Assembly: GCA_019775845.1 (NCBI GenBank)
Contig: JADQAV010000026.1
Coordinates: forward strand, 248,001-312,000
DNA: 64,000 bases
Reading direction: 5' to 3'
Origin: Myrmaecium sp. VS I D KN 1
Lineage: Eukaryota; Ascomycota; Dothideomycetes; Valsariales; Valsariaceae
The translations under genes and the position numbers were made by a program. This document shows, piece after piece, positions 2,955 to 25,051 of this stretch. Every line of letters begins with the position of its first letter. Positions within the stretch are counted from its first letter, which is position 1. The notes under the pieces are model-generated. The model ran no database searches, was not told where the DNA came from, and saw only the letters and a program-made list of their open reading frames with translations.

Positions 2955-3986
2955 ATGCCGCCCAAAGAGAAGGCTGGGAAGGTCATCTTCATAGGCAATA
3001 TTCCATATGGTATGGCGACTGCGCTGATACAAAGACGACCTAACATTCGCGTTACTGACCGACTGTTCTTTGATGCAGGGGTCTCCGAGGAGATGATTAT
3101 CGACATATTCTCGCGCGTTGGACAGGTCGTAAGCTTCAGACTCGTCTCTGATAAGGATACTGGCCGACCCAAGGGCTATGGCTTCGCCGAGTATACCGAT
3201 CATGATTCTGCTGCTTCTGCCGTCCGCAACCTGAACGATCACGAGTTGATGGGCCGACGCCTTAGAGTGGATTGGAGTAATGACAATGGCTCTGGGGAGA
3301 ACGTGGGGGACAGCGCGCTCACGGGCTTCAATGCGACGATACCACAGTTTCAACAACAATTCCAACAGTTCTCCCAGATGCATAACCCATCGGATGCCAT
3401 GTCACAATCTGCACAAGCAAGCTCCACATTGCCGCCTCTGCCGCCAGGAGTGGATCTGAAGCCAGGACTCACTGCTCCTGACGCCATCTCTCAAACTCTT
3501 ACCGCGCTTCCAGCCCCTCAACTGCTCGACATCATTTCCCAAATGAAGGGCCTGGCTATGCAAGATCCAGCGAAGGCGACAGAGCTGTTTCGCGGTGCGC
3601 CGCAGCTGGCTTATGCGATATTCCAGGCTCTCCTCCTTCTCGGACTAGTCGATACCAATGTCCTCGCGAGCGTTATAGATACCACTGCGAGTGCTCCACC
3701 GCCCCAACAACCGTCCATGCCAGTCCCGCCGATGGCGCAACAATACCCTGGATACCCTACAATGCAGCAGCCAGGAATGAATGTACCCACTCCTCCCGTC
3801 CAGGCGCAAGCATATGCGCCGCCTCCTCAAGTGTCCACCGCGCCACAGGCAGCACAGACACCGGATAGACAGCAGCTGATACAGACCGTGTTGGCCTTGT
3901 CACAACAACAGATTGATGCGCTGCCACCGGACCAGAGAAACCAGATACTGGCGTTGAAGCAGCAGATAGTGGCCGGCGTTTTTTAA
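2955..3986 (+). CDS. RNA15: Cleavage stimulation factor 64 kDa subunit (Rna15/CstF-64)
   Basis: This nuclear protein binds U/GU-rich RNA near poly(A) sites as part of the cleavage and polyadenylation machinery (CF IA in yeast, CstF in animals). I read two exons, 2955-3009 and 3079-3986, giving about 320 aa. The RRM begins almost at the N-terminus with RNP2 (VIFIGNIPYG) and has RNP1 as KGYGFAEY. A CstF hinge follows (ALPAPQLLDIISQMK to LLLLGLVD), then a Pro/Gln-rich linker. The C-terminal helical domain (VLALSQQQIDALPPDQRNQI) matches the Pcf11/symplekin-binding end of the family. The intron is 69 bases, a multiple of three, and has no stop codon, so it can look like coding sequence; its GT/AG ends and position inside the RRM show that it must be removed. 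Confidence 0.95.
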   Translation: MPPKEKAGKVIFIGNIPYGMATALIQRRPNIRVTDRLFFDAGVSEEMIIDIFSRVGQVVSFRLVSDKDTGRPKGYGFAEYTDHDSAASAVRNLNDHELMGRRLRVDWSNDNGSGENVGDSALTGFNATIPQFQQQFQQFSQMHNPSDAMSQSAQASSTLPPLPPGVDLKPGLTAPDAISQTLTALPAPQLLDIISQMKGLAMQDPAKATELFRGAPQLAYAIFQALLLLGLVDTNVLASVIDTTASAPPPQQPSMPVPPMAQQYPGYPTMQQPGMNVPTPPVQAQAYAPPPQVSTAPQAAQTPDRQQLIQTVLALSQQQIDALPPDQRNQILALKQQIVAGVF

Positions 3987-4894
3987 ACAGCACAACTTCC
4001 TTGTGGGGCAATTGCTTCCCCAGGGTCTGTCGGGAATTCTTCACTCGCAGGGCATGGCGTTCTGGAACAGACAGGGATATTGTACTTTAATAAACTTTAA
4101 CGAACGGAAATATTTCAAACCTGGATAGCAAGTATGAGCCATGATATGTATTGGGGGAAGTTGGGTTTTTGGGAATGAATCTCTGGGTTTATCAAAGCCT
4201 CCCGGACTTGGAGCTTGTTCGGCGCCGCCCGGGCGGCTAAGGCTGCCGGGTGTGGAGACAAGCGCATGCCGGGGCATGTCAGGGTACGGTACTGCCGGCA
4301 GTAAAACGGCCGCCGAACACCTTTTCCCTGGCTGCAAGCAAAACTTATCATTTACAATATCGCAATGTATCAGCACAGTGACATTTTGTTGCCTAGAATA
4401 TCCTAGCCTCAGGCCAGGGCCGCAATGTGACCGCGCTCTCGCGGCTGGCTGACTCGCCGGCAGATGCTGCCAGTCCCGCTGCGGATCCCGGATCTCGATA
4501 TTGCGAGTGGCTGGGGGCGCAAGTGCCATGATCGACGGGCATGGGTTGCATCTCAGCTGCAGCGGCGGCACCTCCACCGAAACAGAACACAGGCCTCTCT
4601 TCTGATTGCCCGCCGCTCTCGCCCACTTCTCGACTTTCGGGAAGTCAGAGCTCCTTGCTTCTTCATCTTCGCGCTTTGTTCGCGGAACGTCGACGACCAT
4701 CGTCCATCTGCTTGTACTATATCATGACTTACGATTTGATGACTTTGAGCTTCCTGGATACCCAAACCGCTTGAACGACTTCTTTCTGTGACACCGAGTC
4801 TTCCTATCTGCCGTTTCACGCTCGAACCAACCGCTGCGCATCCCCTCTATTGAAGCTGACGCCTCCGATCCGGTAGCTACATGATATAGCTACC
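3987..4894. other. Intergenic region between CstF-64 and leashin, 908 bases
   Basis: A TTTAATAAAC element near 4087 may serve as the CstF-64 polyadenylation signal. Three perfect 14-bp palindromes sit between 4224 and 4303. The remainder is probably leashin promoter and 5' leader. A 219-codon open frame on the minus strand (4041-4700) resembles no protein that I know and I do not call it. Confidence 0.6.
4224..4303. promoter_or_regulatory. Cluster of three perfect 14-bp palindromes
   Basis: GCCGCCCGGGCGGC (4224-4237), CATGCCGGGGCATG (4265-4278; arms CATGCC/GGCATG around GG) and TACTGCCGGCAGTA (4290-4303) lie within 80 bases. The first and third are fully self-complementary; the second has 6-bp arms. 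All carry CCG/CGG half-sites of the kind that dimeric Zn2Cys6 regulators bind. They lie about 600 bases upstream of the leashin ATG. Function is inferred. Confidence 0.45.
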
Positions 4895-7800
4895 ATGTGG
4901 ACGAGGCTGACCGGCAAGAGCGATAGCTCTGCCAAACGTACCGGTCGCCGCAAAGAACCCCCTTCTACGCGCCGGGACGCGGGATCGGGTGCCTCGTCTT
5001 CGGGCCGTCGTCCCCCTCCTAGCGGTGACATATCCCACAGCTCATCTCCAACTACGGGCCCCGCCATGGTCGCTTCGAGCTACGCGACATACGGAAGCTC
5101 TCAGAGACGCGCTGACGCCATGTCCGACGGAACTTCTGGGCTGATCAGCGGCGTCGAAGAAAGATTTCCGCCGATGGAGGACGATGGTCGCTCAGTGGAC
5201 TCTTCGCGTTCCGATCGTCGCCGCGTCCATCCCCCTATTCGCTACGGCAAAGAAGGCGTGAAAGATTATTCGCGAATTCAGAACGGAAGCCGCAGCCGCG
5301 GTGACAAGAACCGGGGCGAGACCACACAGAACGAGAAGCGAGGAACTTCAGCCACTCCGGTTTATAGCGAACGTCCCAGGTACGATCATGACTATATCCA
5401 AGGACGTACATCAACATCGAGAGCTGTAGGGGCTGTAGTGGATGCAGGTAGACCTGCCAGCAGCCGGGCTAGCATCCCTGCTTTGTCGTCAGCTCCAAGC
5501 CGCGATAGAGCGCCGGCGGACTACCCAGTTCCCCAACGATCTTATAGCATGTCGACACATGTGCCTAGCCAGTTTTCAGGCCAACCTCCAGCTCAAACTG
5601 GCGTACCTTTCCCATATGGACAGCCCTCCGTTGACAGGCCATTCGGCGCGGCTGCTGAGTTTTATGGGGACCAGGGCGAGTCGGTTCTATCGCAACCTGG
5701 TGTTAGGCCTGTAGCCCCCCTGATCAACGCTCAGCCTCATCTTATGACCCCTTCCACGACCGCGAATCCACCACCTGAAACAGGTAATGGTGCCGCAGCC
5801 GAATTCTATGCGGACGACTCGCAAAACCAGTCGATACCGCCGAAGCCGCCTAGGCCTTTTACTTCGCCTGGGACGTTTGCTGACGAAGCTGTGCCGATGA
5901 AACCACCGAGGCCGGCTCTATACCACTCTGATATCAGCGCATCCAACCCTGCTTCTGTGCACGCAAACGGCCAAACCCTTTCACTCAACCACCAAGTAGC
6001 GCACATGGAAGGACTCGCTGAGAACAGCGCAGTACAGCAGGCTTTCAATGCATCCGTCTATGCTAATAGCTCAGGCTTACCTTCTAGCGGACACATGCAT
6101 GGTCATTCTGCGTCCGCACCTGCGGTACCTACTTTAGGAACACACACGTCATCCACCTATGCAGACCCTGCGAAGCCCGGTATGTACTCTCCCTTGCCAC
6201 CGAAGCCCAATGCTGGATTCTCTACAGCTGCGGCGTGCAGCTCGGCAGCCCAGGAATATGGGGCTCACCACAGTCCTCCTCACCACCACACCTCCGTTCC
6301 TACTGGGGCCTATCATGGAAGCCTTCAAGCTTCAGGCCAATCTGCATATTCATCTCCAGGTGCTATGGCTTTCGCTCATCAGCATCGTGGACCTCTGAGT
6401 CGGTTTGTGGAGTGGTGGAAGGATTACGAAGACATCCGAAAGATGGAAGAATACACAGAGTACATTGGAGTCTGCCGAGACTGTTTCGATCCATCCACGA
6501 ACCCGGGCGATGGCCCACGCCGACATCAATATTCACGTCGCCGCTCTGATGAAAGGCTGCGTCGAGGCAGAGTGGACAAGGAGTCTCGCTACTCCTCTTC
6601 TGACAATGAAGGAAAGCATAGGCGTAAAGCAGGCAACGGCATTACGGCTAGCATCGCTGGCATTGGCCTGGCGAAAGTTGGCAAAGCTCTGTTCACCCAG
6701 CGGAACGACTTCCAAGACACTTACAGTGTCAGGTCTGGTCATTCGTACCGTTCTTCACAAAGCTCTAGCCACGTCCGACGCAGCCACAATCGTTCTACGG
6801 AACAAGTGATCGACGTCCGCCACAGGACTACTCAGAGCAGGACTCATAAAGAGAAGGTCGACCGCTTCAACGGAAGCGGTATTGGTCATGGGGTCTCAAG
6901 GGCCAAATCCCGCTCACGTTCAACTTCCGGGAGTAGTAAAGGCAGTGTTGCGCTGGATGCCATATCTGACACTTTCGCTCCTCCATCACCACCGAGCCAT
7001 CGTAGGCATACGCGAAGGCCAGAGCAGCAGGCCGTGTATGGAGGCTCTTACAGTCACGGAAAACGCCAAAGCGCCGAGGACACCTTGCGGGTGCACCGTA
7101 ATTCTCAACACTCGCTCAGCTCTGCTGATTCCAACGCTACTCCATCGTCACCAGTAAAGGCGCCAAGTGGGTTTTTCTCAGGCTTTTTTGGTAACACTGA
7201 AACCCAGAAACGGGCGTATAAGCGTCCCAGGTCCCCTCCCAAGCGACGCAGGGGTTTCTTTAGCTTCGGAAGTTCCTCGTCGTCAGACGGGCTTGCTTAT
7301 GGGAGTGACTACATCGAAAAGCGAGAGATCTCTAAAGCAAGACGTAAGACGTCGGACGAGAAACTCGAGGAGACTCTGAAAGCCCTCAGCGCCACAGCAG
7401 GTGCTATAGCCGCCGTTCAAAGTAATCGAAACAACCGCAGGAAGAATAACCATCGCCGTGCTCTTGGACGAACCAAGAAAAAAGGCAAGCGACCGGTGTC
7501 AATGGTTGGGTCGTGGCAATCGTCCTCAGCTTCGTCGGAAGACGGCTGGGAGTCCGCTTCCGAAGCGGAAAGCTCTTCCCATTCGTCTAGCGTCGATTCT
7601 GCTCTTGCTTTTGGCGACTTCGTCTTTGAGGACAAACCGCGAAGTCGCCCGGGATCTGTTATTTCGAATGAATCAGCGGGGACCAGTAAATGGAGTTGGC
7701 GATGGGGAAATGGCAAGAAGAAATCGGCTCCCTCTCCGGCTCCCTCTCCGGCTCCCTCTCGGCAACACGAGCCCGTGGAAGGTAGCTTATATGCCGGCTC

Positions 7801-10800
7801 CTCTACCGCGACCGGCACCGGCCATGCTGCAAGTACAGTCTTTACTGGCCATGCTGAAAGCTCTGTGAGCAGCGCTACCAGCATACCTACTCTCCAAACC
7901 GTCTATCCCAAGGCAACTGCTGATCCTGCTTACATGGACGTCACTAGGCGGTCTTCTTCCGGCCATGTCCACCCCATTGTCACCTCGCGTCTGGAGAGCA
8001 TACCTTTGCGGCAGCCGCGGCCTATAACGCCAGTTCCGGAAGCCGTATATAACAGCGGAATGCAATCTCAATCTCCTACTGCGATCTCCTCCGCCCCTCC
8101 TAGATTCCCCGATTCCCAGTCCAGTGCCTTTGGGAGATCCCCGGTGCCAGCTGCTTCGACCGTCGAGGAGAGTCGCCGAAGCAAAGTACTCTCCAGTGCA
8201 TTCTCTTGGCATACTTCATATTCATCCATCAATCACAAGGAAGATATTGCATCAGGCGATGCCGCCGAACTACGGTTGAGAGACACCGAGAAGCGCCGCG
8301 ATACGGTCAGCTGTCCGCCTGGTGTTCGTTTCGAACTCACGGAAGATCAGGTGAAGAAGGAGCGACGCCGGGATCAACTGAACAGGGCAAAGCGAGACAG
8401 CTTAACGCGGAGTGGGAGGCTTGATGCTTCTTTGCCATACGAAGACCAGGGGACTCAAGCTCGGCGAGGGGCACAGTCCAAGGACCATCTTGACTACGGA
8501 GCCTTCGGAAAGGAGAATGTCGCCGTAGTAGGCGATACCACTTCGTCTGAAGCCACGGCAAAAGATGAGGCGAAACGTTTACGATTGGCATACAAAGCAG
8601 CACCAGCCAAAAGGGAACAGCTTGAGCGCGAGATTATGGAGATAAAAATGAAAGAAGACGAAGTGCAGAAGGCTTTTTCGAGCGGAGTACGAAATGAACC
8701 AGCCTCCGTGAAAGAAAACCCCATGCCAACTTCTGAAACCCATCAATCGCCCTCCAGTTCGCATGTACCGAATAACGAGCGCAGCACACCTGATGGCGCC
8801 GGCCGTCGCTCCTCAGAGGCGGTATCCAATATTGCCCGCAGAGCTTCTAACAGAATCCTTGAGGACCTCAAGAAAGAATATGAGGATCCAGCGGATGTTT
8901 TCGAAGACTTCGAGCGGAGATACACGGAACGCCCAGTTTCTGCAGCCGACATATCCGCGCCTCCGGAGCTTCTCGACAAGTCCGCTGGCCCGCCACCGAT
9001 TGATGTCGATGCTGGCACTCGCGTGCATGTATACAATGCCCACGCGATAGAAACCAGGGAACCTCCCAGGATGCCACCTTATCCCCCAGATTACTCCTTC
9101 ATCGTAGCGAAGGATGTGCCGCATAGTGCACGTATGGCACCGCCTTATCCCGTTCCAGAAATCAATCTGATCAAGCCTACTCCACCGGCCAGTTATGCTG
9201 GCTCGATTGTCGGGCGTTCAGCGTCAGCTTCCCCTTTGGCGACCGCGACCCAGGAAGTCAAGGATGAGAAAGAGGGGGAGGAAATCCCCCAGAAAGAGGC
9301 CAAAGTTAGCTGGGGCGAGCCACAAACCTTTCAGTATGAGATCATGACACCTGAGTCCAGCCACGATCATAATTCACCGGACCGGGAGTACTCAGGCCAT
9401 GAAACTATGGCGCCTGGATCGCCATCGAGGAATGAAGAAGAGGCTACCCCCAATACTCTGTCCGTAACGGAATCTCCAAAACAGGAGCCCTTTTCCACAG
9501 GGTCCTTTACTCCTGCTTTAGAAACCGACGAACAACGCGCGGAAGACGAGATAATTGGCCATATCCCAACAGATGGAGAAAAAGTTTACGAGGCCCACTC
9601 GCCAGAGGTGGAGCCGGTGGTCATAGAGCCAGGACCTACATTTTCATTTCGACGTCGCCCGATGTTCTATCGCTCTCCTTATTGCGAAACCGTCTCTGAT
9701 CTGACATTTGAGGACGATGACATTGTCCCAGGCAACTCACATGGCTTCGTAGAAGGTGAGATCGTCGAGTCTCCGGTTACTGTCTCTAGTTTGGATGTCC
9801 TTGAGGACCTGCCAGCGACTACTGATATGCCCGGGAGCTTCATCGAGTCCGAGACCCCCACTCCGAACGTGCAGGAGAAGCCTGATGCTACCGCTCCGCT
9901 GAGTAGAGCCGCAGATGGCAGACGTGAAACTAGGCAAGGATCTGATACCTCGGCCTCGGATTCTGTGGGTCCGAACGCCCCATGGCGCTTGCATAAGAGT
10001 AGAAAAAGCTTTGGCAAACAGAGCTCTGGTCGTGAGCATGTCGGTGGCACCCCAAAATCATCATCTGCCACTTCCGGTACCAGCTCAAATACCGGCCGGG
10101 TCATGCCGCTCAGAGAGGACAACGACTCGACTGCCTCAGAGGTCCCCATCCGGAACAGTGACGATGGTGACAGACCTCCAAATGGTGATCGGGATTCGAA
10201 GACCAGACCAGAAGTGGCAGAGCCCCAGCGAAAATATGTTCATATGGATCCTCGTCCGGATCCAGTAGGCAAGGCGAACTCCACCAACCGGGATGATAAT
10301 GTTCATGCACCGTTAGGTCTCGAAAGTGACCAAGGCAAGAAGACGGAGGCTGCATCTGAGAAAGCTTTTGCGATACCAGACCTATCAAGTCTGGACAAGG
10401 ACGGCCTTTCATCCACTACCACCAAGCCCGAAAAGAGCCGCACAAGCGTAGGCATACCAGATGTCCAAACGCATTTCAACGATCCTGGTAGAGAGACAGG
10501 GCAACGTACCGGCAGCCACAGTGCTCGAAGGTCTAGGGACCCTTTTGAGCGTAGCTGGAGCGAAACACGAGACGACTTCAAGATACCGTTTGTCGAGTCA
10601 CCCAACTCTGAAGACGAGAGCCGCCCGTTTCGATCTAAACGCAGGGTGAGTGAAGCGAGCATGGAGAATGGTCATCATGTGCGTTCTCACAGCGTACAAA
10701 GGGGGAAACCCCGAAGGTATTCTCTCAGTGATGCATATGATGAGACTCCGTCAACTGCTTCCCAAGATCGTTTGCCAGAGAGATCCGAGCGTCAACGGCA

Positions 10801-13800
10801 CCGCCGAAGCAATCGGACCAGCAATAGAGATGGTGAAGTTCAATCGATCAACCTGGGTGAGCTCGATCACAATGATGATGATAGTAGACCAAGCAAGTCA
10901 AGCCGTCGCCGTCGTTGCCGCCGATACAGTGACCAGGTAGATGCACCTAAATCGCCCACTCGCTCTTCAGCCGTCTCTGAACCGGTTGATATCTACGATG
11001 GGCAGAAGAAGTCGCGACGAAGGACCAAATCTAGCGACCGGTCTAATGATGGCCAGTCAGTAACGTCTTCTCCATCTCGTCACCGCGATGAACCTGTGAA
11101 ATCCCAGAAGGAGAGAAAAAGTGGTCTTTTGGGGTTCTTCGGAATTCGCAAATCTAGCGACAGCTTGCCTCAGCTAAGTAGGACCGGATCTCTTGATCTG
11201 GACCCGGATGATGAAGGCGGTACAGGCAAGAAGCGACGGAGACACAAACGCAGAGGTTCCACATATGGGTCTGAAGGCGACGACGAATCTTTGGCTAGGT
11301 CCTACGATGCCAAGAAGGCCAGAGAGCGCAACTTGGACGATTATAGCGTCAAACCGCCTCAGCGCAGGCGAAAGTCAGAAGCGGATGAGAGGGATTCTTT
11401 TTTAGGCGATCGGGCAGTGGAAGAGGGTTCACTGCCCGTGGCTGATGGGGTACTCCTCGATCAGCATACTCCTGAAAGCCCTCTCCAACATACCCAGGCA
11501 ACGAAAAGGAATCGGTTAGAGAAGGAAAGACGCGCCAGTTCTACAGGACTACGTAGGCATGGTTCACCATCCCCTGAGTCGCAAGACTTCGAACCGCAGA
11601 ATAGCGAGGTCGCTACTTATGACAACGTACCAGTAGAGATACCTCTACCAGCATCGCGTCCGGAAACACCTCACACAGAAACACCGCTGCCAACGACGCC
11701 TTCTCTCGCCGAATCCCGCGCCCATTCGACCACCGCTATACCATTCAAACTTCGCTTCGGCCGGTCTCCCGTCTCGCCCACATTCTCAAGGCGCGCAGAC
11801 CACAACCTTTCCTCGCCCCTTGGCCTTTCCTCAGCTCCTAGCTCTCCCTCTTCCACGCGCTCGCGGCACCGGAAGTCTAGCTCAGCGGACTTCAAACACA
11901 ACACGGAATCATTTCGCCCACTTTACCTCGTAGAGGTAAATCGCAAGTCCCTTACCCACCTCTCCGAACCGGAAGAAGAGAGCCTTCCGGCGCTCCCCAG
12001 CAGCAGGGAGCCCAGCAGAAGTCCGAGTCTGCAAGGGACCGAGGAAGATTGGGAGTCCGCGCGTGAGAGCCCGAGCATGAGCGGGGCAGAGCAGGTTTCC
12101 GAGAGTAGCCCGGAGATGCATGATGCTGAGGAAGGTGATTATCTCGGTAGTGGCCAGACTACACCGAAAGCGATGGAGTTTCCCGTCGAAGTAACAGATG
12201 TAAAGACGGACTTCAGGGAAGAATCCTCCTCTGCGACCTCAGATGATAAGAACTCAGATATCGAGCGGACTACTAAGATGGCAGAACCTGCCATGGGGTC
12301 TGATGCCCTGTCCATAAGGAAGGATGCTATAAGGGAGCCTGAATCTGTTTCAGTAGCGGAAGAAGGACCGCTCAAACATAACGAGTCAGGTGCAGCGCCT
12401 GATGTAGCCTTAGATGAATCTCGTGCGGAGAGCTCACAACCCGTCGGAGAAGAACCCGTTCATGAGACCCTAAGCACCGAACAGACCCAGCCTCACAGGT
12501 TTGAGGACGAACCTCTTGAACCGAAGCCTACGGACAAGAAAGGTATTGCATTGTCAGCAGCCGAGATGCCGCGTGGTTCATCACAGGAGAAAGGGAGTAC
12601 AAGTCTTCTCGCCATGGTCAAAGACGCCATTCTGGGACAAAGGTTTGATAAACAGCGGTTCTCTGCATCGCCTCTCAAGTCGGGTAATACGGACGTCCCA
12701 GATACGTCTACAGGCGCTGCATCCCCCAATCAAGCAAAGTCTGCGCCCGCGGAACCTAAGCATGCCGTACTGACGTCCGAGGAGACCCCCGATTTCAGCC
12801 AGGAACAGGGTCACGTCGAGGCAGGGTTGGAAAGTGGTTTCGGCGGTCTAGATGAACCAGTCAAGCAAAACAGCCTGCATGATAAGCGAGATGGCCTGCT
12901 GCATGCTGAACAACCGACCTCTACCGAAGAAGCCAGTGGCGATCCAAAGCCTTGCTCTAGGCCTGCATCTCAAATGCTCAATAATCTGTCAGACGACGCA
13001 CAGGACATGCAAATGCCTAACCCGGCGACTCCTGAGGGTAGTATTGCTCCGCCCCCTTCTGATTCTCAACGGCTTCAGATTGATACAGCGTTATCCCGCG
13101 TTGCGCCGGACCTGCTGGTCAATGATGAGGCTCCTAGTTCCGCACTAGAACCTGCCAACCCTCAACCTTGCCTCACTGAAGCAGAAGGTCTGGATACTCA
13201 GGGTGAAAAATCAGGCTCAACCAATCTACAGGGGGCGGGCAGAGTGGTTTCAACTTCGGAGGTGATCGGGGATGACTCTACGCAACTAGCTTCCAGAGAG
13301 GAGGAGGGAAAGAACAAGGGAAAGTCAAAGCAAACCGAGATTCCGGATGAAGATGTTGCCCTGGAGACCAACATATCCCAATCGACCACGGCGGATGCGA
13401 AGCCAGCTGATGAGCCTTCGGTTCCAGCGACCATGCCGAGAAACGTAGAGCCGTTTGTGGAGAGCGTCTTTAGCGATACTCCTAAGACGACCGACGGTGC
13501 TTCTCCTGACATTTGTCGCGCTGCTACTGATCAGGTAGCTGACCCAGTCGCTGCTTCCCACGACCAGGATATTGATCAGACCCCTCTCGAGCCGGATACT
13601 AAGCCCTCTGATAAGCTTGCTCTTCAGCCACTCGACTCTATGCCCGTCAGCACCGCTATCGAGCTTGAAGATAAGCGCGAGGCTGAGATTCCTGAACATG
13701 GTCTTTCTGAACGGATCGAGAAACCCACTGGACCTTTATTAGAAGGTAAAGGGTCTGAAGACCCTTTAGAATCTGTAACAGAGCCGCCCGATGATGTTCC

Positions 13801-16800
13801 CAATATGTCGCCAGTGGGAGAGACGAAGGATAATCATCCAGAGTCACGGGGAGTAACTTTTGGTGCAGACGAGGAAGCGAATTCTGTCAAATCGGACCAG
13901 TCCCCAGTTCAACATGACACAGAATCCGCAGAATCTTACAGAGCACCACAGACCTCGGATGGCACCCGAAATCCACCGACGTCAGCTATCGCGAAAATCT
14001 CTAAGGTGGCATTAGAACCGGATACCGCAACAAAAGCCTCATCCAACGCTACGTCTTCAGTGCCCCGCAAGAAATCGAAAGGGAAGAAGAAAAAGAAGAA
14101 CAAGACCACGGCCGTGTCAGATACAGCGGTTGACCCCGTGGCGACCCCTATCGCACCAGCAACTTCACGAGCCAAGGAGGGCTCTGCTCCTGAATCGACT
14201 GCCCCCGAAGCTTTCCAACAGCCTGACGAAGACGCTTCTGGGGAGCTGCTCGCCGAACGGGTCGTCCTTACCGGCGCTCAAGCGAGGAAGGCCGAACTGG
14301 AAAACGCAGATCCAACGCCACTATCTGGCGGTCCAGTGCAAGAGCTGCGATCTGATGAACCGTTCTTCCCTGAGTCTGCTAGTCTTCCGGTTGCCTCGGA
14401 CAATGTACCACCTAATCCATCCGCCGAGGGGTTTACTGCTGAAGCGAAACGTGCGGTTGAAGAACCTCATGCTCCCACTGCCAGTTCGTTTGAATCGAGT
14501 CAAGAAATACCATCTCATGGCCAACCCAGTTCTAGCTCATCGCTTGTGCCTTCTTCCAATACGACTGCGAATATCCCAAATGCGAAGCGAGCTCCCGTGC
14601 TTGATCCTGCCGCCAGTGGTGATGGACCCGGGGCGAAACCGGACTCGTCTACTTTGATGGCTGAACTGGCAGTCCTGCAAGATGATCCTACTATAGCCAG
14701 CGCTGACTCCAAAAATGAAGAAGCTTCACAACTAGATCTTGCTCAAGGTGATGTGCCGCTTGACCACTCTCCTATGATCCTAGGTAGAGACGATAGTTCG
14801 CAGGCTCTGTCTGGTGCGGTAACTGAAGTAACCCATGACCAAACGGAAGCCGCAACGATATCGACCCCTGATCCTGCAAGCCGGACGGATACTAGTGTCC
14901 AACTCGAAGCATCTGCCCACGCAGAAGGTACACCACAGGCTGGAGCTGGGTCTTTACAGGAAGCTTCTGTCGCAGAGGGAAAGGACCTACATGTAGATGA
15001 GGTTCATCACTTCATTGATGCACTGGAAGGGTTAGCACATAGTACGCCATATGAAGAGGCAGTCCAAGCCGCAAGCGAGTCCAAAGACAAAAATGCTTCT
15101 AATAAGGAAATCCCAGCAGACGCTTCGGCCCCTGACGCTACTGCAGAATTCAAGGCGCCGGGATCTACAGAAACCCATTCGGAGTTATCCTCTGCACAGG
15201 GGCCTGGTATCGCCCCTTCAAACAACGTGGAGCATGAGCTGGCGCCCGAAAATATCCCTCTTCCTCTGGATTCGCCATCTTGGAGCCTAGTTTCTATTGT
15301 TGCTGAACATGAGCTGGAGCCAGAACATATGCCCCTTCCTGAGAATTCGCTTGGGAGCCCGATTCTGAGCAAGGTTGAGCATGAGCGGAAGCCCGAGGAT
15401 ATTCCACTTCCTGAGGATTCGCTTGAGAGCCCAGCTCTGAGCAGCATTGAGCATGAGCTAGAGCCCGAAGATATCCCTCTTCCTACGGGTTCGCAAGCTG
15501 GGAGCCTAGATTCGAGTGATGCTGAACATGAGGTGGAGCCTGAAGACATCCCTCTTCCTGCAAATTCGCAGTCCGAGATCTCATTCTTGAATGACTTTGA
15601 GCTTGATCCGGAGCCCGAAGAAGTCCCTCTTCCTACGGATTTAGAATCAGGCAGTCTAGCCCTTGAACCCCAAGAGATTTCGGAACTTCCGGAGATCCCT
15701 GAATTCCAATCAGACACCAAGAGGGTTTCTAATGCTAGAGCCTCGCCCGAGCAGGGTACAGCAGCCTCGGAATTCTCGAAGAATGGAAAGGAGTCGACCG
15801 AATTGCCAACACTTGCCGTTGCTTCCAAGGATAACACCGCTGTGGTACGAACGGAGTCTACGAATGCAGATTTCCCCCAGCAACAAGAAGACTCCGACGA
15901 ACGATCACCTGGCGCCAAAGAATCTGATGAGTATAACATCCAGTTGGGGCCGGAGTCTCAGCCTGCATCTTGCGTAGTGGCACCTGAAGAGAACAAACAC
16001 TCGAACTTGGGCAATGCTACTGAGCAGCATTCTACCCTCGAGCCGAGCCAAAGCCCCAAGGTGGAGGATGGTCAATCGTCAAGGGATGGCCTCATATCAG
16101 TGGACAGACTCGATCACACCAAGGAGCATCAGCTTAGACCAGGTGGACTTAAGCCGCCCGTGGAAACCACCGATACTGACACCGAGAATCTTGGGGAGAC
16201 TGTTGCGCCACCGATTTTGGTGGCCGGGGGACCAGAGGCCAAGCCAGTGGAGGACACAAGTTTAGCTGAGACATCTACGGATGATACATCTGTTCCGATC
16301 AATGACCCTGAAAGCGAGATGGATGATCATGTGGTCGCGTACTGTGAACATTCCACGATGGCCGAAAAGATCGAAACCGGCCCTCCGAACCACGGAGAAG
16401 GTACGATTGAAGAAGCTCGGCAGGAAAAAACGATCGACACCGGCACGAATCCGACGGTCGACCCGCACAATGCCCACTTGTCGCAAGGAGAAGCGTCGTC
16501 GGCAGCAGAAATCCCACGTCTTGCAGAGGTTACCGACCGCGAACTCGGGAAACAGCTGGACGAGGTCAAGGATAATGGGAAGACCGACAACGATACGAAG
16601 GAACCACAACAGAATGCGGCATCATCTGCCCTAAACCTTGACACCGATGCCGCTTCGGGCCCGGCATCTTCAGGTCCTGCACCCGCCTTTGAAACAGTCC
16701 AGCCAGAGTATCCTGTAATGGAGCGTGCTGGTACAACACCGACGCCACAGCAAAGCATAATCGAAGTGACTGGGCCGGGCATTGACAAGAAAAAGAAAAA

Positions 16801-19800
16801 GAAGAAGAAGAGCAAGAAGGACAAGAAGGACAGAAAGGACCCGTTGTCAGTTGCAGTAGCAGAGGAAGAATCTTTGCCTGCCCAATCCACGACCTTACCT
16901 GATGAAGTTGACTCTGTGGATGGATCCGCGGGCGAAGGATCCACTGACCCCTTGCTCAGCGAACGTCCGTTATCAAATAATGACCATCTGAAGGTGAAAG
17001 ATCACCCGGAAATGCATTCTCTGTCCAATGCTTCTGAAGCAACTGCGCTTGCAACAAATTGCCCGGAACCAGAGACGCCGGAAGTGGCGAAAGCAGCAGA
17101 GTCGGTGACTGAACAACCAGTTGAATCCGATGAACTTGAGGCTATAATCCAACCTAATAAGGAGGGAAGTGAATTATCTGCAGGAAATGTACCGATACCT
17201 TCACAAGACAAGACTAAAGAGAGCGATTCAAGCACTGCGCCGGAGCAGACATCCCTCGATCAAATCTCTTCCCAAGGCGATGCTGTACCGACCTCGGCAG
17301 ATCCTACGGCCCCGGAAGCAAGTTCACCGACCTTGGGTCTGGACGACCAGCTTATTACCGCTCCGTCTGCTGCGCTTAGTGACGATGGTGCTGTGTTGTA
17401 CAAGCAAAGAGGCGAGACCACGCAGCTAACACAGCCTGGTTCGTGCGAGCCTAATTCCGCAGAAACGTGTCCAGATGTCCATGATGGAGCACGCATGGAG
17501 CATGGCATTGAAGAAACAGATTTTTTAAGGGACGGACCGTCCGAACTTCCACCCAATGTTGAAGGTCCCTCAACACGGGGTCCGCCTGAAACTATCACAC
17601 AGTCTTCCCCACTTACTCCTGACAATATCATCAGTACTGAGCCAGACCTTAGCCACGCAGTCACAAACGTTGCACCCGCGGATGTATCGAACCCGCCCCA
17701 TGATCCGAGCGACGTGAGCAACGCTCCTGCAGCTGATCAGCACGAAAACGACCAGCCTCCTATCCCAACCGGTGCAATGACCGCCGGCAAGAGCCCCGAC
17801 ATGGACCGTAATGCGACGTTAACTGCCAGTCAATCGGATAACATACCAGCCTCGTATGAATCAGCGCATTCCCAGTCACGAGAAAACGAACCAAACGACG
17901 AGTATCCCGCTATCGTAGGGGGTAAGCTCGCCGTAAGGGAAAGACCGCGAACTTGTGCTGAGCCAGATTCTCGGAATGTTTCAGAGGTTAAGACGGATGT
18001 GTCTGCCAAATATGATGCTGATTCCCGTCCATCGTCCAGTGATATGGCTCCCAAAAAGCAAAGTAAGAGGGAAAAACGGAAAGCGAAAAAGAAGTCTCGA
18101 ACTCAGGATAATGCCATTTTGACCGCTGAGGTCGAGCCCGACGTCCTAAGCTTACCATCACAACATGACTCCGGACTACTGCCTGAAGATACCCTTACCA
18201 GTGATACTGGAAAACCTGGTCAGCATTCCGGCAACAATGTTCCCGCGGACGGTGTTTCACGCCATAACGAGGCTACGAGTACTGAGAAGGCACTTCTCCC
18301 GCAAGATATTGCCGATGCTCCCACCCCTCTCTACGATCAGGAAGAAAAGGAGTGGAATGACCAGGTCAGTCAGGGATCCGAGGCCACGGGAAGAGAGACG
18401 GTCCAACCTACCTCGCGAGCTGCCTCCCTCGGGTTGAGGAATCAGGAAACTGATAGGGAGTTTACAGCAACCCTTGCTGCAGGCCTGGAAGGTTCTGGTT
18501 TCGATCCCAGAATAGTATTGCATGATCCGATTTATCGTAGCAAGAACGGATCTCTAGATCGGGCCCTCGATGCTGGCTCCGATCTACCAGGGGAATTAGC
18601 CGCCAATGATGCCAACCAAGATCATGGTCGTGCCTTGATGCCTGTGGTAGATATCGGAAATGCGCCACTGGATGGACCTGCAGTTGTGGAGGCAGCGGCT
18701 ACGGCTAAAGGTGAGGACAAGCAGCCCAAGTCTGGCGATCTTGACTTCACTGAAGCCATTGCCGCGGGGTTGGAAGGCTCGGGCTTTGACCCTAATATCG
18801 TGCTAAACGATCCACTCTTCAACCGAAGTGGATCGCCGTCAAGTGCTCTAGACTCGGAGCCTGACACCGGATTTGTTCTTCGCAAAAGACCGAGGAAAAA
18901 GAGAAACGGGGATCGCGCTTCTCCTCAAGCGGCATCCAGATCAAGTTCAGCAGAACTGGCCCCTTCTCATTCCCAAGAGACAGCATTAAACCAAGAGCCT
19001 CCCCTTACGGACAAGTCTGGTGCAGTTAAGGAAATCCCCTCTACAGAAGCTTTGGAACCCCATACCGAGTCGGAAATCAACGAGATTGCTGGTAAGCTTA
19101 TAGATGAAAGGGAGTCTGGCGCGGAAGGTGTAAAGAAAACAGTGGTAGCAGAAGCGCAAGATCATGTCTCAGCTGAAGATCTCGACGTCAACGAGAGTAC
19201 GGCACCAGTCATCGACGTACAACCGGAGCCTCCAGTCGAGGCTGAGGCTCGCGATGTGGCGGAGTCAACTGATCCCAAACCAGCAATTCGGTCGGACTCA
19301 GTAGAGGATCAGGAAGCTGAGAATCCAGCCGTTTCCGGAGGCCTCACAGAGACAACTGCCGGATTCGATGACCTCAGTAAAGCCAATGATGCAACTGCAG
19401 AGCCAAAGGAACTGAACGCTGCCATATTGGAATCAGAAGTGCGGGACAGACCCCTTGCTGATCAAGGCTCTTCAACGCAAAGTGAGGTTCAACAACCGGC
19501 GGACAAGGGATCAGGCGTGTTCCTCGAGCGTGGCGATGACGCAACACGGAGTGATAAGGTGACAAAACCGAAGGACAGTGGTGTTAGTACAGAGAAAGGT
19601 CTGGGCCTACTGAAACAAATGTGGGATGAAAGAGCACAAGCCGAGTCGCCTCTATGCCCCGTTGAAGAATCACAAGGCGATATTCTGGATACACGAGAGA
19701 GATTGCCGGCACAGGGAGAGGACCTTCCCACGCTGCAGGAGCCAACTTGGTCATTCGCTAACACTCGCGACAGCGTTGTCCATGTCGCGGACTCTCCGTC

Positions 19801-22800
19801 GCTCAGCAATAGCCTGGTCGGCGAACTCCAAGAGCATCAGCTGCGCGATAGCGGCTATCACGACGCTCAAACGAGTCTCATATTGCCATCCGGAGCGGAG
19901 ACCAATGCCGCTCCGTTATTGCAGGAAAGTCTGCCACATGGAGAGTCTAACCAGCCTTCACAATCTCTAGAACGAGACAACGGGGAGATAACTATGGTTC
20001 ACGATCCTGCTCAAGAGCAACAGGCGTCCTTAGAGCCCAGCAAGATGTCAACACCGACGGAGACCCGATTTTCACCACCATTGGGTTCCCTAGACAGACT
20101 GGCGACCGAGGGACTTGACTCCACCTCGAAAGCACGTAGCTCCTACTCATTCCGTTCCCCTCCCGAAGACGACGTAGAGCAGCCATCGGAGGCGCCGGCA
20201 GCCGAACAGCCTCCGGAAGTTTCCGAGCCTGAGGGTGTGCAGCAAGAAGAGACACAATCACCCGGGGGAACGAAGCCCGGTCAAACATGGACCTCCATCT
20301 TCGGCGATCCAGACTTGTCCAGCAGCAAGAAAATAGAGCCTTCTACTCCCCCAAGGCACTACCGGTCTCCAAGCACGCCTTTAGATACCATACGTGAGCA
20401 CAGCTCTGAAGGTTCGCCGCTCCGCAAGAAGGCTCGTGAGATACATGATGTGGGCATGCCGGAACGCGGAGTCAAGACAGCCAGGCGGTCCGCAACTCCA
20501 ATACCATTCCAGCGGCGGTCGAAGCCTCTAGAGGCTGATGCGCCTCTGCCGGATGAGGAAGGTGAAGTTGAGGGGCCATCGAAGACAGGGGAGGATGCAC
20601 AAACACATGCTCCCTGGGCTTCGATGGAAGGGGCCTGGGGAGTCGGTGACATCGACCGTGGTACCACCCTCAGCCCAGCGCGGCGGTTCCCAAGCCCCCG
20701 TGAAACGGTGCGGAACGTGCCCAGCCGGCAGTTCTCCCCCAGCGTGCAGAGCGAACGGTCGGCGAGCAATATTGGCCGACTGCGATCGCCGGACCCGCTG
20801 CGGCCTCTGAGCTCGTTGAGCTCGATGAGCCAGGGATCGGCCACGCCTCCGCTACGGCGGGTGGACCGCAGCCTGTCGGGCGATCTGCGGGCGGCAGCAC
20901 GGCTTGGCGAGGCGCGAGCACGGGCACAGCAGGGACAAGGGCAGGGGCAGGGACAGGGACAGGCGGGGCCACAGCCGAGTGGGATGACCGACCAGCCCGA
21001 ATCGCGGGCGGTTGGCGGCACTGATAAACCCCTTGACCGCCCCGGAACCCCCGAGCCCCAGCCCCTCCACCACCTCCACGACCCCGCCAACGACCGCCCA
21101 GCACATGCCCCCCCGCGCCCAACCACCCCTCCCAGCGACAACCGTCTTCCACCCGCGACCACTCGAAGCAGGGGCGTAGCTATGGCCGACGTCTATGTAA
21201 GTGTGATCTCCTGCATTCTTTCATCGATCAGAACTGATTTAGCTCAGGAGGGCTGGGGTGACGCCCAAGGATCGCCTGGCTTGTCTCCGACTCGTCCTGC
21301 CAGCATCCGCAAGCGCCAAAGCCTATACATCGTTGACCTGCAACACCAGCTCGACCAACTCGCCTCGGAGAACCGCGCGCTGCAGGAGGAGAGGGCCCGC
21401 ACTGCTGAGCTTATCCGCGAGTCCCAGCACCAGCATCAAGCCAACAACCAAGTCACCGCCGAGGCTGTGGATGCACGTGACCGTCAGCTGCGTGCCAACG
21501 ATGCCGAGATCACTCGTCTTCGCCAGGCCCTCGCAGCGGTGGAGAAGGAGGTCGCGAGGCTGACTGAAGAGAACTCTCGCCTCTCGGAGGCCAATAAGCA
21601 CCTCGTCGCTGATACCAATGACCGTTATGCCACCCTACTGAACGAACGCGAAGAGGAGAAGAAGCAGTTACGTGAAGCAACCGAATCTTTGGAAGCTTTG
21701 AAAGCACAGCACAGCACCCTCACTGCCGGTGTGGAGGAGGTCGTTCGCCAAGAGATAGGAGCTGCACTGGATGATAGAAACGAAGAGATTGACCGTCTCA
21801 ACAAAGCGCTAGACGCTGCCGTGGAGCAGATCAAGTCGTTGCAGAAGGAAATCATTGCTTATAAACGAGATCAAAGCTTTCTCACCGTGCGTGATGAGGA
21901 TTACTTTGACAGCGCCTGTCAGCAGCTTTGCCAGCATGTGCAACAATGGGTCTTGCGGTTTTCCAAGTTTTCTGACACCCGAGCATGCCGCCTTACTTCC
22001 GATCTCCAGGACGAAAAGATCGAGGCCAGACTTGACAATGCTGTCCTTGATGGCTCGGACGTCGATCAGCTTCTTGCCGACCGTGTTCGAAGGCGCGACG
22101 TCTTTATGTCCGTGGTGATGACCATGGTTTGGGAGTACATCTTCACACGGTATCTCTTCGGCATGGATCGGGATCAAAGACAGAGGCTCAAGCAGCTCGA
22201 GAAGACTTTGAGCGAAACAGGTATGTTTGTGTGCACTGATTCTTTCTGGCATATTGCTGATAAACGCGTTAGGCCCACCGAGAGCGGTCGCCCTCTGGAG
22301 AGCAATCACCTTGACTCTCCTCTCCAAACGCGAGGCATTCCTCGAGCAGCGCAAACAGGACACCGAAGCTGTCGTGCAAGAGATCTACACAACCCTTGCC
22401 ACCCTCCTCCCCCCGCCCCCCCATCTCGAGCGCCAGATCCTCGACTCGCTCCGGAACGTCATGCGCCTCGCCGTGGACCTCTCCATCGAGATGCGCACCC
22501 AGCGCGCAGAGTACATCATGCTTCCGCCCCTTCAGCCCGAGTACGACGAGAACGGCGACCTGGTCCGCAAGGTGTACTTCAACGCCGCCCTGATGAACGA
22601 GCGGAGCGGCGACACGACCTCGAACGCCGAGCTCGAGGCCCGCGGCGCCGTCGTCAAGATCGTCCTCTTCCCCCTCGTCGTCAAGAAGGGCGACGGCCTC
22701 GGCGACGGCGAGGACGAGATCGTCGTCTGCCCCGCCCAGGTCCTCGTCGCCACCCCCGCCGCGTCCAAGAAGGTCGTCCGCGTCCTCAGCGGCGCCATGG

Positions 22801-22880
22801 ACGTCGACCACCCTCAGCAACGCGCGCCCTCCTCCAACCGGTCCGTCATGTCGGATGCGATGGATATGAGCGTTGTTTGA
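4895..22880 (+). CDS. lah: Leashin-type giant Woronin-body tether (involucrin repeat protein)
   Basis: Leashins tether Woronin bodies to the septal pore so that damaged hyphal cells can be sealed. I read three exons: 4895-21196, 21248-22220 and 22273-22880, for about 5960 aa. The open frame that runs on to 23047 is read-through of the second intron. The N-terminal 500 residues are basic, disordered and have SH3-ligand-like PPKPPRP and MKPPRP motifs. A conserved block with RFVEWWKDYEDIRKMEEY and GVCRDCFDP sits near residues 503-534. The middle is a long acidic, Ser/Glu/Pro-rich region with degenerate repeats, three lysine-rich clusters, a six-copy EPEDIPLP array and two GLEGSGFDP modules. After residue 5434 comes a long coiled coil (IVDLQHQLDQLASENRALQE onward) and a helical C-terminal domain (LERQILDSLRNVMRLAVDLS). 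Neurospora splits the locus into LAH-1 and LAH-2; here the frame is continuous, as in Aspergillus. Confidence 0.88.
14066..14104 (+). repeat. Lysine-rich cluster 1 in leashin
   Basis: About 13 codons read RKKSKGKKKKKNK. It is the first of three similar basic patches (also near 16784 and 18050) in an otherwise acidic region. They could be nuclear-signal-like artefacts, or contacts for acidic partners or lipid; the sequence alone does not decide. Confidence 0.6.
15227..15646 (+). repeat. Six-copy HELEPEDIPLP tandem array inside leashin
   Basis: Copies start at 15227, 15302, 15374, 15446, 15521 and 15596, so the period is 72-75 bases (24-25 residues). The core is E-H-E-L-E-P-E-D-I-P-L-P followed by a Ser-rich spacer. 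Copies differ by several substitutions, and the last has diverged to DPEPEEVPLP, so this is an older, coding-frame-preserved expansion and not a recent microsatellite. Confidence 0.9.
16784..16839 (+). repeat. Lysine-rich cluster 2 in leashin
   Basis: This is a run of AAG/AAA codons with a few Ser, Asp and Arg codons: DKKKKKKKKSKKDKKDRK. It is the longest of the three basic patches in the protein. Confidence 0.7.
18050..18100 (+). repeat. Lysine-rich cluster 3 in leashin
   Basis: The codons read PKKQSKREKRKAKKKSR. It lies about 360 bases before the first GLEGSGFDP module. Confidence 0.6.
18458..18535 (+). repeat. GLEGSGFDP module, copy 1
   Basis: A 26-residue block begins EFTATLAAGLEGSGFDP and continues RIVLHDPIY. 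It matches the block at 18743-18820 at 18 of 26 positions by eye. It is predicted helical followed by a turn, in contrast to its disordered surroundings. Confidence 0.8.
18743..18820 (+). repeat. GLEGSGFDP module, copy 2
   Basis: This second 26-residue block begins DFTEAIAAGLEGSGFDP and continues NIVLNDPLF. Its start is 285 bases after that of copy 1. The differences are conservative (E/D, L/I, I/L, Y/F), which suggests a constrained binding motif and not drift. Confidence 0.8.
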
Positions 22881-23566
22881 GATCAGACGAAAAGAAAAAA
22901 ACAATACAAATCAAAATAAAGAAAGAGAGGGAGGGAGAGAACAAGAAGAGAAGAGAAACGGTTGTTTTGTTTGCTTTTCCAGAGCATCTTTGCTTACTGA
23001 TGACCGGGACGATTCATGTTATAGAAAAACCTTCTCTTTCGATTTGACTGAGAGAAGAATAACGAAGGAGAGTAACGAGAGCTCTCTCCGCTTGACGAAT
23101 TCCATTTTTCCTTTGTGTTACAGCATGATGATACCTTGTTTTCTCGTCCTTTTTCAATTCTCGATTCATGACAAACATCCCGAGCGATCTACTATACTCG
23201 TGTTTGTCGCCGTGCCGCGTTGAGCATGTTTATATTGATTGCATGTATGTAGCATGATATCAATTCTGCATTTGATTTCTCATTCTAGCATGCATGGTGC
23301 GTGCCCACGGATCAACGCACACGTGCCGGGCTAATTCGACAACCGAATTTCCACAAGAACAAGTGACTTTGGATCCATACGAAATTTCCAGAAATACACG
23401 CGTAGTGGGAAAGGTAAAGAAAACGAAAGAAAGCAAAAACAGGTGGAAACAAAGGAGAAAAACAGAAGGAGACAAGAGCAGGGGAATAAGAACAGATTCG
23501 GCAAAAGGGATGGCACAAGATCAAAGGGATGGGGAAGGGAATGAGAACAAAGCCTCCCTCGAGCGC
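22881..23566. other. Convergent 3' region, 686 bases
   Basis: This lies between the end of leashin (+) and the end of the H3-tail-like gene (-). It is richer in A and T than its neighbours, with A/G-rich stretches just after the leashin stop. It probably holds both 3' ends. I see no gene. Confidence 0.6.
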
Positions 23567-25051
23567 TTAGGCGCCCTCGTCTCCTTCCGTAGCTACATCG
23601 CCTTCGCCCTCCTCGGCCTCCTCGGCCTCGAGGTCGTAGATTTCGATGTCATCCTCCTCCTCTCCCACCTCGCCCTCATCATTGTCCAGGGCCTCTTGCG
23701 CCTCCGCACCCTCCGCACCCTCTTCATCGAGATCGTCTCCGTCCACGTCTTCGGCCTCAACCGAAGAACTGCGCTCCACCGCGGCGGCCAAGTGTCGAGG
23801 CGCCCTGCCGCCGGCGCCGGGGGTGTCGAGATAGCCGAGCGACTCCAGGATGCGGCGCTGGGTGGCCCGGCTGTACGGGCCCTTGAGGCGGTGCTCGCGG
23901 CCGAGGCGGGCGGCCACGTCGGCGGGGATGTGGGGGAAGATCTGGTCGCAGTAGAAGTCCCACCAGCCCATCCAGACGCGGGCCTCGCGCCGGAGCCGGT
24001 CGTTGTACCGCTCCAGCTCCGTCACTTTCTCGATCAGCTCCCGCCGCGGCGGCAGCTCCTCCTCGATCAGCCGGAGGACCAGCGCGCTGACGCCCTCCGT
24101 GAGGAGCTCTTCCGAGGTCGGCTGCGCGGCCAGCTGGGCCTCCAGCGCCCCGACGCGCGTCCGGAGGTCCGCGATGACGGCGGGGTCGATCGGCGGCTGG
24201 TCCGGCTGGGAATTGATGTGGTCCTCGAGCTCCTCGAGCCGGGTGAGCAGGTCCTGCAGCTGCGCCGAGTTTACCTGCGAGGCCGAACCGCTTTGCGCGG
24301 GCTGTGAGGTTGATGCCCGCCCGGTGGATTGGTAGCCCGCCTCAAGGTTGTCCACCCGCTTCCCGATGCGCTCGAGGTTTCGATCGGTGATACACCGGAC
24401 CCACGCCGCCACGTCCTCGGGTTTCAACTTCCTCTGTTGCCCGACGTTCATGGAAATGCCCCATTGCTTATCCCGGTGCATCTGCCGGTCGACCTTCTTC
24501 CGATAGTCGCGCACGTCTTCCTCAGTTGGCAGCTGTTCGCCGTCGTCTTTCTTGTCCTCGCTCTTTTTCCTTCCGCCTTTGCCCTTGTCCTTGTCGCCGT
24601 CTCCTTCGTCATCATCGCCGTCATCGTCATCGGGGTCTCCAGGATCAGCTCCGGCAGCTGTCGCTTTGCCCCGTTGCTGTTTTTTGGCCGGCTTCTTGGA
24701 TGGTTGGTCTTCATCGTCTCCGTCGCTATCGGCCTTGCGCTTCCTTCCTCCAACGCCAGCCTTGCCACCACGGCCGGTTTTAGTGGTGGTGTCGGCGGCC
24801 GCCGACTGCGCACCTGATTTGCCCCTGCCAGGAGAGTGATCTCCTTCACTCTCTTCTTCAATCGAGATATCAACCGGTGCGGCTGGACCCTTCCCGCCGG
24901 ATGTTGCACGTCCGGCCGGACCTTTCCCTCCGGTCGTTGGGCGCCCACCCGGACCTTTCCCGCCTGTGGTCGGACGGCGGGTGTTCGGTCCTTTTCCACC
25001 AGTGGTCGGGTGGGCTTTGGTGGGCTCCACGGAAGCGGCACGTCGAGCCAT
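23567..25051 (-). CDS. Charged protein with histone H3-tail-like N-terminal repeats
   Basis: I do not recognise a family. One exon encodes 494 aa. After MARRAASVEPTKAHP come four copies of T-(T/S)-G-G-K-G-P (residues 16-56), three preceded by R-P or R-A. This resembles the H3 tail segment ARKSTGGKAPR around Lys9 and Lys14. Next is a long Lys/Asp/Gly-rich disordered stretch with likely nuclear signals (GGRKRKADSDG, KKPAKKQQRGK). A more ordered central part has WVRCITDRNLERIGKRVDNL and heptad-like helices (residues about 205-330). A Trp/aromatic block, RVWMGWWDFYCDQIFPHIP, follows near residue 355. The last 70 residues are extremely acidic. This layout suggests a nuclear chromatin-associated protein, which is inference. 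The ATG is the first in frame and puts ARRA after Met removal, as H3 has ARTK. Confidence 0.75.
   Translation of the reverse strand: MARRAASVEPTKAHPTTGGKGPNTRRPTTGGKGPGGRPTTGGKGPAGRATSGGKGPAAPVDISIEEESEGDHSPGRGKSGAQSAAADTTTKTGRGGKAGVGGRKRKADSDGDDEDQPSKKPAKKQQRGKATAAGADPGDPDDDDGDDDEGDGDKDKGKGGRKKSEDKKDDGEQLPTEEDVRDYRKKVDRQMHRDKQWGISMNVGQQRKLKPEDVAAWVRCITDRNLERIGKRVDNLEAGYQSTGRASTSQPAQSGSASQVNSAQLQDLLTRLEELEDHINSQPDQPPIDPAVIADLRTRVGALEAQLAAQPTSEELLTEGVSALVLRLIEEELPPRRELIEKVTELERYNDRLRREARVWMGWWDFYCDQIFPHIPADVAARLGREHRLKGPYSRATQRRILESLGYLDTPGAGGRAPRHLAAAVERSSSVEAEDVDGDDLDEEGAEGAEAQEALDNDEGEVGEEEDDIEIYDLEAEEAEEGEGDVATEGDEGA
24884..25006 (-). repeat. Four-copy TTGGKGP repeat (H3-tail-like)
   Basis: Codons for residues 16-56 hold four heptapeptides TTGGKGP, TTGGKGP, TTGGKGP and TSGGKGP, spaced 11-12 residues apart. 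The DNA repeats are visible on the plus strand as recurring CGGACCTTTCC-like words with small differences between copies. Confidence 0.9.

Follow-up and report, generated by a model that had tools for sequence, protein, structure and literature searches.

Does the repetitive N-terminus of the 494-residue protein encoded here copy a histone tail and, if so, which one? The gene lies in the window, the 64,000-nucleotide stretch of DNA that we analysed. The sequence-only reading had taken its product for a mimic of the H3 tail, with four evenly spaced TTGGKGP copies behind MARRA, followed by nuclear-signal-like stretches, a coiled-coil-like core and a very acidic tail. The gene and the parts of its protein are as follows.

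23567..25051, minus strand: single-exon ORF of 494 aa, an uncharacterised repeat protein starting MARRA
24986..25012, minus strand: repeat 1, HPTTGGKGP, residues 14-22, Lys20
24950..24976, minus strand: repeat 2, RPTTGGKGP, residues 26-34, Lys32; the identical 9-mer occurs in a protein on contig 66
24917..24943, minus strand: repeat 3, RPTTGGKGP and then AGRA, residues 37-45, Lys43; site of the best match to the fungus's own H2B tail
24884..24910, minus strand: repeat 4, RATSGGKGP, residues 48-56, Lys54
24665..24745, minus strand: bipartite-NLS-like basic stretch, RKRK ... KKPAKK, residues 103-129, read from sequence
23762..24526, minus strand: helical, coiled-coil-like core, residues 176-430, from AlphaFold2 and heptad counts, low confidence
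23570..23815, minus strand: acidic tail, residues 413-494, from charge and D/E composition

A repeat protein and the conservation of its motif

Because only six sense codons separate the ATG from the upstream in-frame stop, this ATG is probably the true start, unless there is a 5′ exon. The layout described earlier is largely borne out. Four GGKGP-bearing repeats are present behind MARRA, within residues 14-56; GGKGP begins at residues 18, 30, 41 and 52, placing the lysines at 20, 32, 43 and 54 with a nearly even spacing of 12, 11 and 11. The TTGGKGP description fits three copies, which read [HR]PTTGGKGP, but the fourth is the variant RATSGGKGP. Residues 1-59 carry a net charge of +10 and are 73% G, P, S, T or A, and further basic Gly-rich stretches lie downstream of the repeats. 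Nuclear-signal-like basic stretches can be read by eye from the protein sequence, and among them residues 103-129 look NLS-like. The core has a coiled-coil-like character in a low-confidence model (AlphaFold2, single sequence; helices only, mean pLDDT 52.7), and the last 82 residues are indeed very acidic, at 41% D/E and a net charge of -31. Inside the ORF, residues 1-186 have a GC3 of 0.55-0.61; the value jumps to 0.81-0.97 in residues 187-434 and is 0.69 thereafter.

The protein is encoded by a single copy in its own genome (25.66 Mb, 66 contigs), where the second match is weak and falls in a Gly/Lys-rich stretch (contig 27, E 0.09, residues 73-132, 36% identity). Searches of Pfam, NCBIfam (bacterial and archaeal models) and the PDB gave no match above cut-off. 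The best Pfam match below it was HSBP1, with an E value of 0.074 when the whole protein was searched and of 0.0079 with the core alone; the PDB matches all had E values of at least 0.66, and residues 1-60 had no PDB match. Pfam listed no histone fold (PF00125) at E values up to 10, which argues against membership of the core histones, and at the same limit no AT_hook, although HMMER filters drop most weak matches; nor did it match a bromodomain or transposon domain. Pattern matches to the protein in viral_contigs (304) and genome_contigs (587) yielded none confirmed by tblastn, in collections that are viral and prokaryotic and hence uninformative on fungi.

Tandem Repeats Finder reported the repeats as one array with a period of 33 bp, 2.6 copies and 78% matches. 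Between the four repeats pS was 0.71 and pN 0.08 (six pairs, which are not independent of one another). When the observed numbers of base changes were placed at random on a consensus used as the starting point, 10.7 amino-acid changes were expected among the repeats against 3 observed, and none of 20,000 simulations gave a count as low; in the same simulation, an invariant GGKGP core across all four repeats had a p value of 5e-5. The repeats thus differ mostly at silent sites, so the motif was kept while the DNA drifted, and it is conserved at the amino-acid level between copies.

Which histone tail the repeats resemble

Reference tails were read from the fungus's own genome: H3 (contig 17), H2B (contig 29) and 18 residues of H2A. 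Comparing the third exon of the H2B gene with the PDB bore out its identity, whereas H2A was named from sequence. The best ungapped 12-mer against the H2B tail paired PTTGGKGPAGRA with PTTGGKAPAGKA, 10 of 12 residues being identical (BLOSUM62 score 57), whereas the best against the H3 tail paired NTRRPTTGGKGP with QTARKSTGGKAP and scored 38. As background we used the 553 stop-to-stop window frames of at least 60 aa (69,132 residues), most of which are not real genes. The next best of these scored 35 against H2B, 22 points below the 494-residue ORF, and 37 against H3, a single point below it; against the H2A tail, the ORF was outside the top six frames. At lengths of 9, 12 and 15 residues, none of 400 composition-preserving shuffles of residues 1-70 attained the H2B score, and 3, 0 and 4 of 400, respectively, attained that for H3. 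By both the frame and the shuffle scores, then, H2B likeness lies well above background and H3 likeness barely so.

The individual repeats point the same way, with H2B/H3 scores of 37/31, 47/35, 47/29 and 27/26 for repeats 1 to 4, although repeat 4 does not discriminate between the two tails. Repeat 3 and its flank have PTTGGK-x-PAG-[KR]-A in common with the H2B tail. Unlike H2B, the 494-residue protein has no histone fold match, carries the motif fourfold and continues into a helical core and an acidic tail. Judged by these comparisons, the repeats are closer to the fungus's own H2B tail than to H3. Of the mimicry first proposed, the histone-tail-like GKxP repeats stand out from background and are retained, but the tail is that of H2B rather than H3. 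Likeness to H3 is weaker than had been claimed, and since the H2B match is far stronger (57 against 38), H3 mimicry was set aside as the leading reading.

The motif elsewhere in the genome and a protein on contig 66

Genome patterns were picked after the sequence had been seen, so their counts are descriptive. Codons for PTTGGK occur at five places: three lie in the 494-residue ORF, and H2B and a contig-66 protein have one each (reversed control, 0). TGGK[AG]P is found at 10 sites against 2 in the control: three in the ORF, one each in H3, H2B and contig 66, and four others that lie in short or unrelated frames. Motif-like strings therefore also arise by chance. With one mismatch allowed, the same pattern was uninformative (141 matches against 169 in the control). 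For GGK[AG]P[RS]K there are six sites, five in the contig-66 protein and one in H3 (control, 1). Four candidate loci (L016, L018, L022 and L024) were rejected as being at about control level. Two AT-rich, H3-like stretches with in-frame TAA codons, L008 on contig 64 and L010 on contig 5, are perhaps RIP-mutated H3 relics. When the H2B tail, residues 1-59 or the contig-66 array served as a protein query against the genome, each recovered only its own place.

The contig-66 locus (L052; 3230 to about 3806 and about 3871-5543) encodes a second histone-tail-like repeat protein, this one H3-like. With splice sites judged by eye, it is probably a two-exon gene, comprising a probable first exon and a 482-residue C-terminal part. 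Its array, RPTTGGKGPRKSVGGKAPRKSVSGKPPRKLVGGKAPRKTVGGKAPRKTVGGKAPRK, is preceded by S[YV]GGK repeats. The best H3 match of the array pairs RKSVGGKAPRKS with RKSTGGKAPRKQ at a score of 52, reached by 0 of 400 shuffles, against 38 for H2B, reached by 7 of 400. A weak Myb-like match was below cut-off (E 0.06), and of 145 pattern matches in genome_contigs, a collection that is not fungal, none was confirmed.

The two proteins have in common the identical RPTTGGKGP, an array of GGK-x-P and a very acidic C-terminal part. A contig-66 unit differs from repeats 1 to 4 by 6, 6, 8 and 7 silent and 1, 0, 0 and 2 non-silent changes, and the units of the contig-66 array differ among themselves with a pS of 0.51 and a pN of 0.16. 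In BLASTP the repeats of the two proteins align at E values of 1e-4, 3e-4 and 0.005. Other pieces, among the matches listed, had E values of at least 0.18, and in these nothing above chance level linked the contig-66 protein to the helical core. Unlike the array of the 494-residue protein, that on contig 66 is H3-like (TVGGKAPRK...) and internal, and the proteins are otherwise dissimilar.

A possible acetylation scaffold and its alternatives

G-K-x-P is the recognition sequence reported for Gcn5 in excerpts of three papers (PMC4964394, PMC3344931, PMC5575660). Each of the four repeats, reading GGKGP, has this sequence around its lysine, as expected of a Gcn5/KAT2 substrate. The fungus's own genome has 11 bromodomain matches, and scanning the frames of six of these loci revealed a GNAT+bromodomain gene on contig 18, an SNF2+bromodomain gene, a bromodomain+BAH gene and two with a bromodomain only; the sixth frame gave no match. 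As GNAT+bromodomain and other bromodomain genes are common in fungi, their presence is permissive only.

Our tentative best explanation, to which we give a probability of roughly 0.4, is that the protein is a nuclear scaffold whose disordered N-terminus offers four G-K-x-P sites, nearest to the fungus's own H2B tail, to an acetyltransferase and to acetyl-lysine readers. The four repeat lysines would be substrates of a Gcn5/SAGA-type histone acetyltransferase and, once acetylated, could offer bromodomain readers a multivalent platform, or else compete for these readers with histone tails. The helical core may self-associate or bind a partner, and the acidic tail might bind basic histones, which its strong acidity would suit. 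Non-histone chromatin targets of Gcn5 are on record, including Snf2 and Rsc4 K25 (excerpts of PMC4803063). Yeast Rsc4, a non-histone chromatin protein acetylated at that lysine, offers a model of how the repeats might act, but it has its own tandem bromodomain, going by the title of a paper cited there, whereas the 494-residue protein has no bromodomain match.

The scaffold reading is weakened by the motif itself, a short string of G, P, T, K, R and A, residues common in disordered regions. It is also weakened by the lack of H2B preference in repeat 4 and by genome protein searches that found only their own queries. Nearly as probable is an ordinary basic, Gly/Pro-rich disordered tail, serving in nucleic-acid contact, as a spacer or as an NLS helper, whose histone likeness is convergent composition. 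The makeup and charge of residues 1-59, the further basic Gly-rich stretches and the lack of a family match above cut-off all suit such a tail. Moreover, the four tandem copies arose by duplication and amount to one independent resemblance. Convergent composition fits less well with an H2B match that beats 400 of 400 same-composition shuffles and exceeds all other window frames by 22 points, or with an exact GGKGP preserved through heavy silent change.

We consider it unlikely that the gene is a lineage-specific or transposon-derived orphan in which the helical core does the work and the tail is a passenger. The GC3 rise could mark a composite gene, and the collections searched held no relative; but these cover viruses and prokaryotes, where missing relatives are expected, the gene is single copy without a Pfam transposon domain, and the repeats are conserved within the supposed passenger. 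True H3 mimicry is less probable still, and we regard it as very doubtful. TGGK-x-P is common to H3 and three of the four repeats (the fourth has SGGK), an Arg stands six positions before the Lys in three of four, as Arg8 does before Lys14 in H3, and the 12-mer score was reached by none of 400 shuffles. Removal of Met would presumably expose Ala-Arg, which we count in its favour. Yet Ala-Arg is all that ARRA has in common with the ARTK of H3, Lys4 is missing, and K9 has no equivalent (RKS in H3, RPT here). The score of 38 hardly exceeds the background of 37, and every repeat scores higher against H2B, if only by 27 to 26 in repeat 4.

Histone-tail-like motifs in non-histone proteins are already known (excerpts of PMC10208167). 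Influenza NS1 and SARS-CoV-2 ORF8 resemble the 494-residue protein in carrying a short motif of this kind (same source), but these viral mimics copy ARSK/ARKS of H3, whereas here a GKxP array sits in a fungus's own gene. Among the open-licence literature matches listed, we found no endogenous fungal protein with an H2B-like GKxP array; nor, judging by titles and the starts of abstracts, did the listed papers on histone mimics describe anything resembling this one. TTGGKGP, TTGGKAP and GGKGPRK occur in no paper of the open-licence collection searched, and the listed papers with GGKAPRK deal, by title, mostly with H3 and with its modifications and peptides.

Should the lysines prove to be acetylated and read, the cell's own protein would hold several histone-tail sites in one chain and would give a clean way to ask whether non-nucleosomal tails titrate or recruit the writers and readers of histone marks. 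Among fungi with differing H2B tails, the repeats should then track the H2B of their own species. It is conceivable, though improbable, that this fungus has a small class of non-histone proteins copying different histone tails as multivalent arrays, H2B-like here and H3-like on contig 66, which would act as acetylation-dependent platforms or decoys buffering histone acetyltransferases and bromodomain proteins.

Elsewhere in the window, ten other ORFs were scanned. Nine matched copper amine oxidase, CSTF2, P450, adaptin, VID27 (twice), GatB, MFS and ammonium transporter, and the tenth had an acyltransferase match below cut-off. Neighbours such as VID27, together with small introns, point to a fungal origin of the DNA. 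Positions 4895-23047 hold a giant ORF of 6050 aa with repeated EHELEPEDIPLP-like units; its last part is probably intron read-through, since the frame at 22227-22880 has a more protein-like C-terminus.
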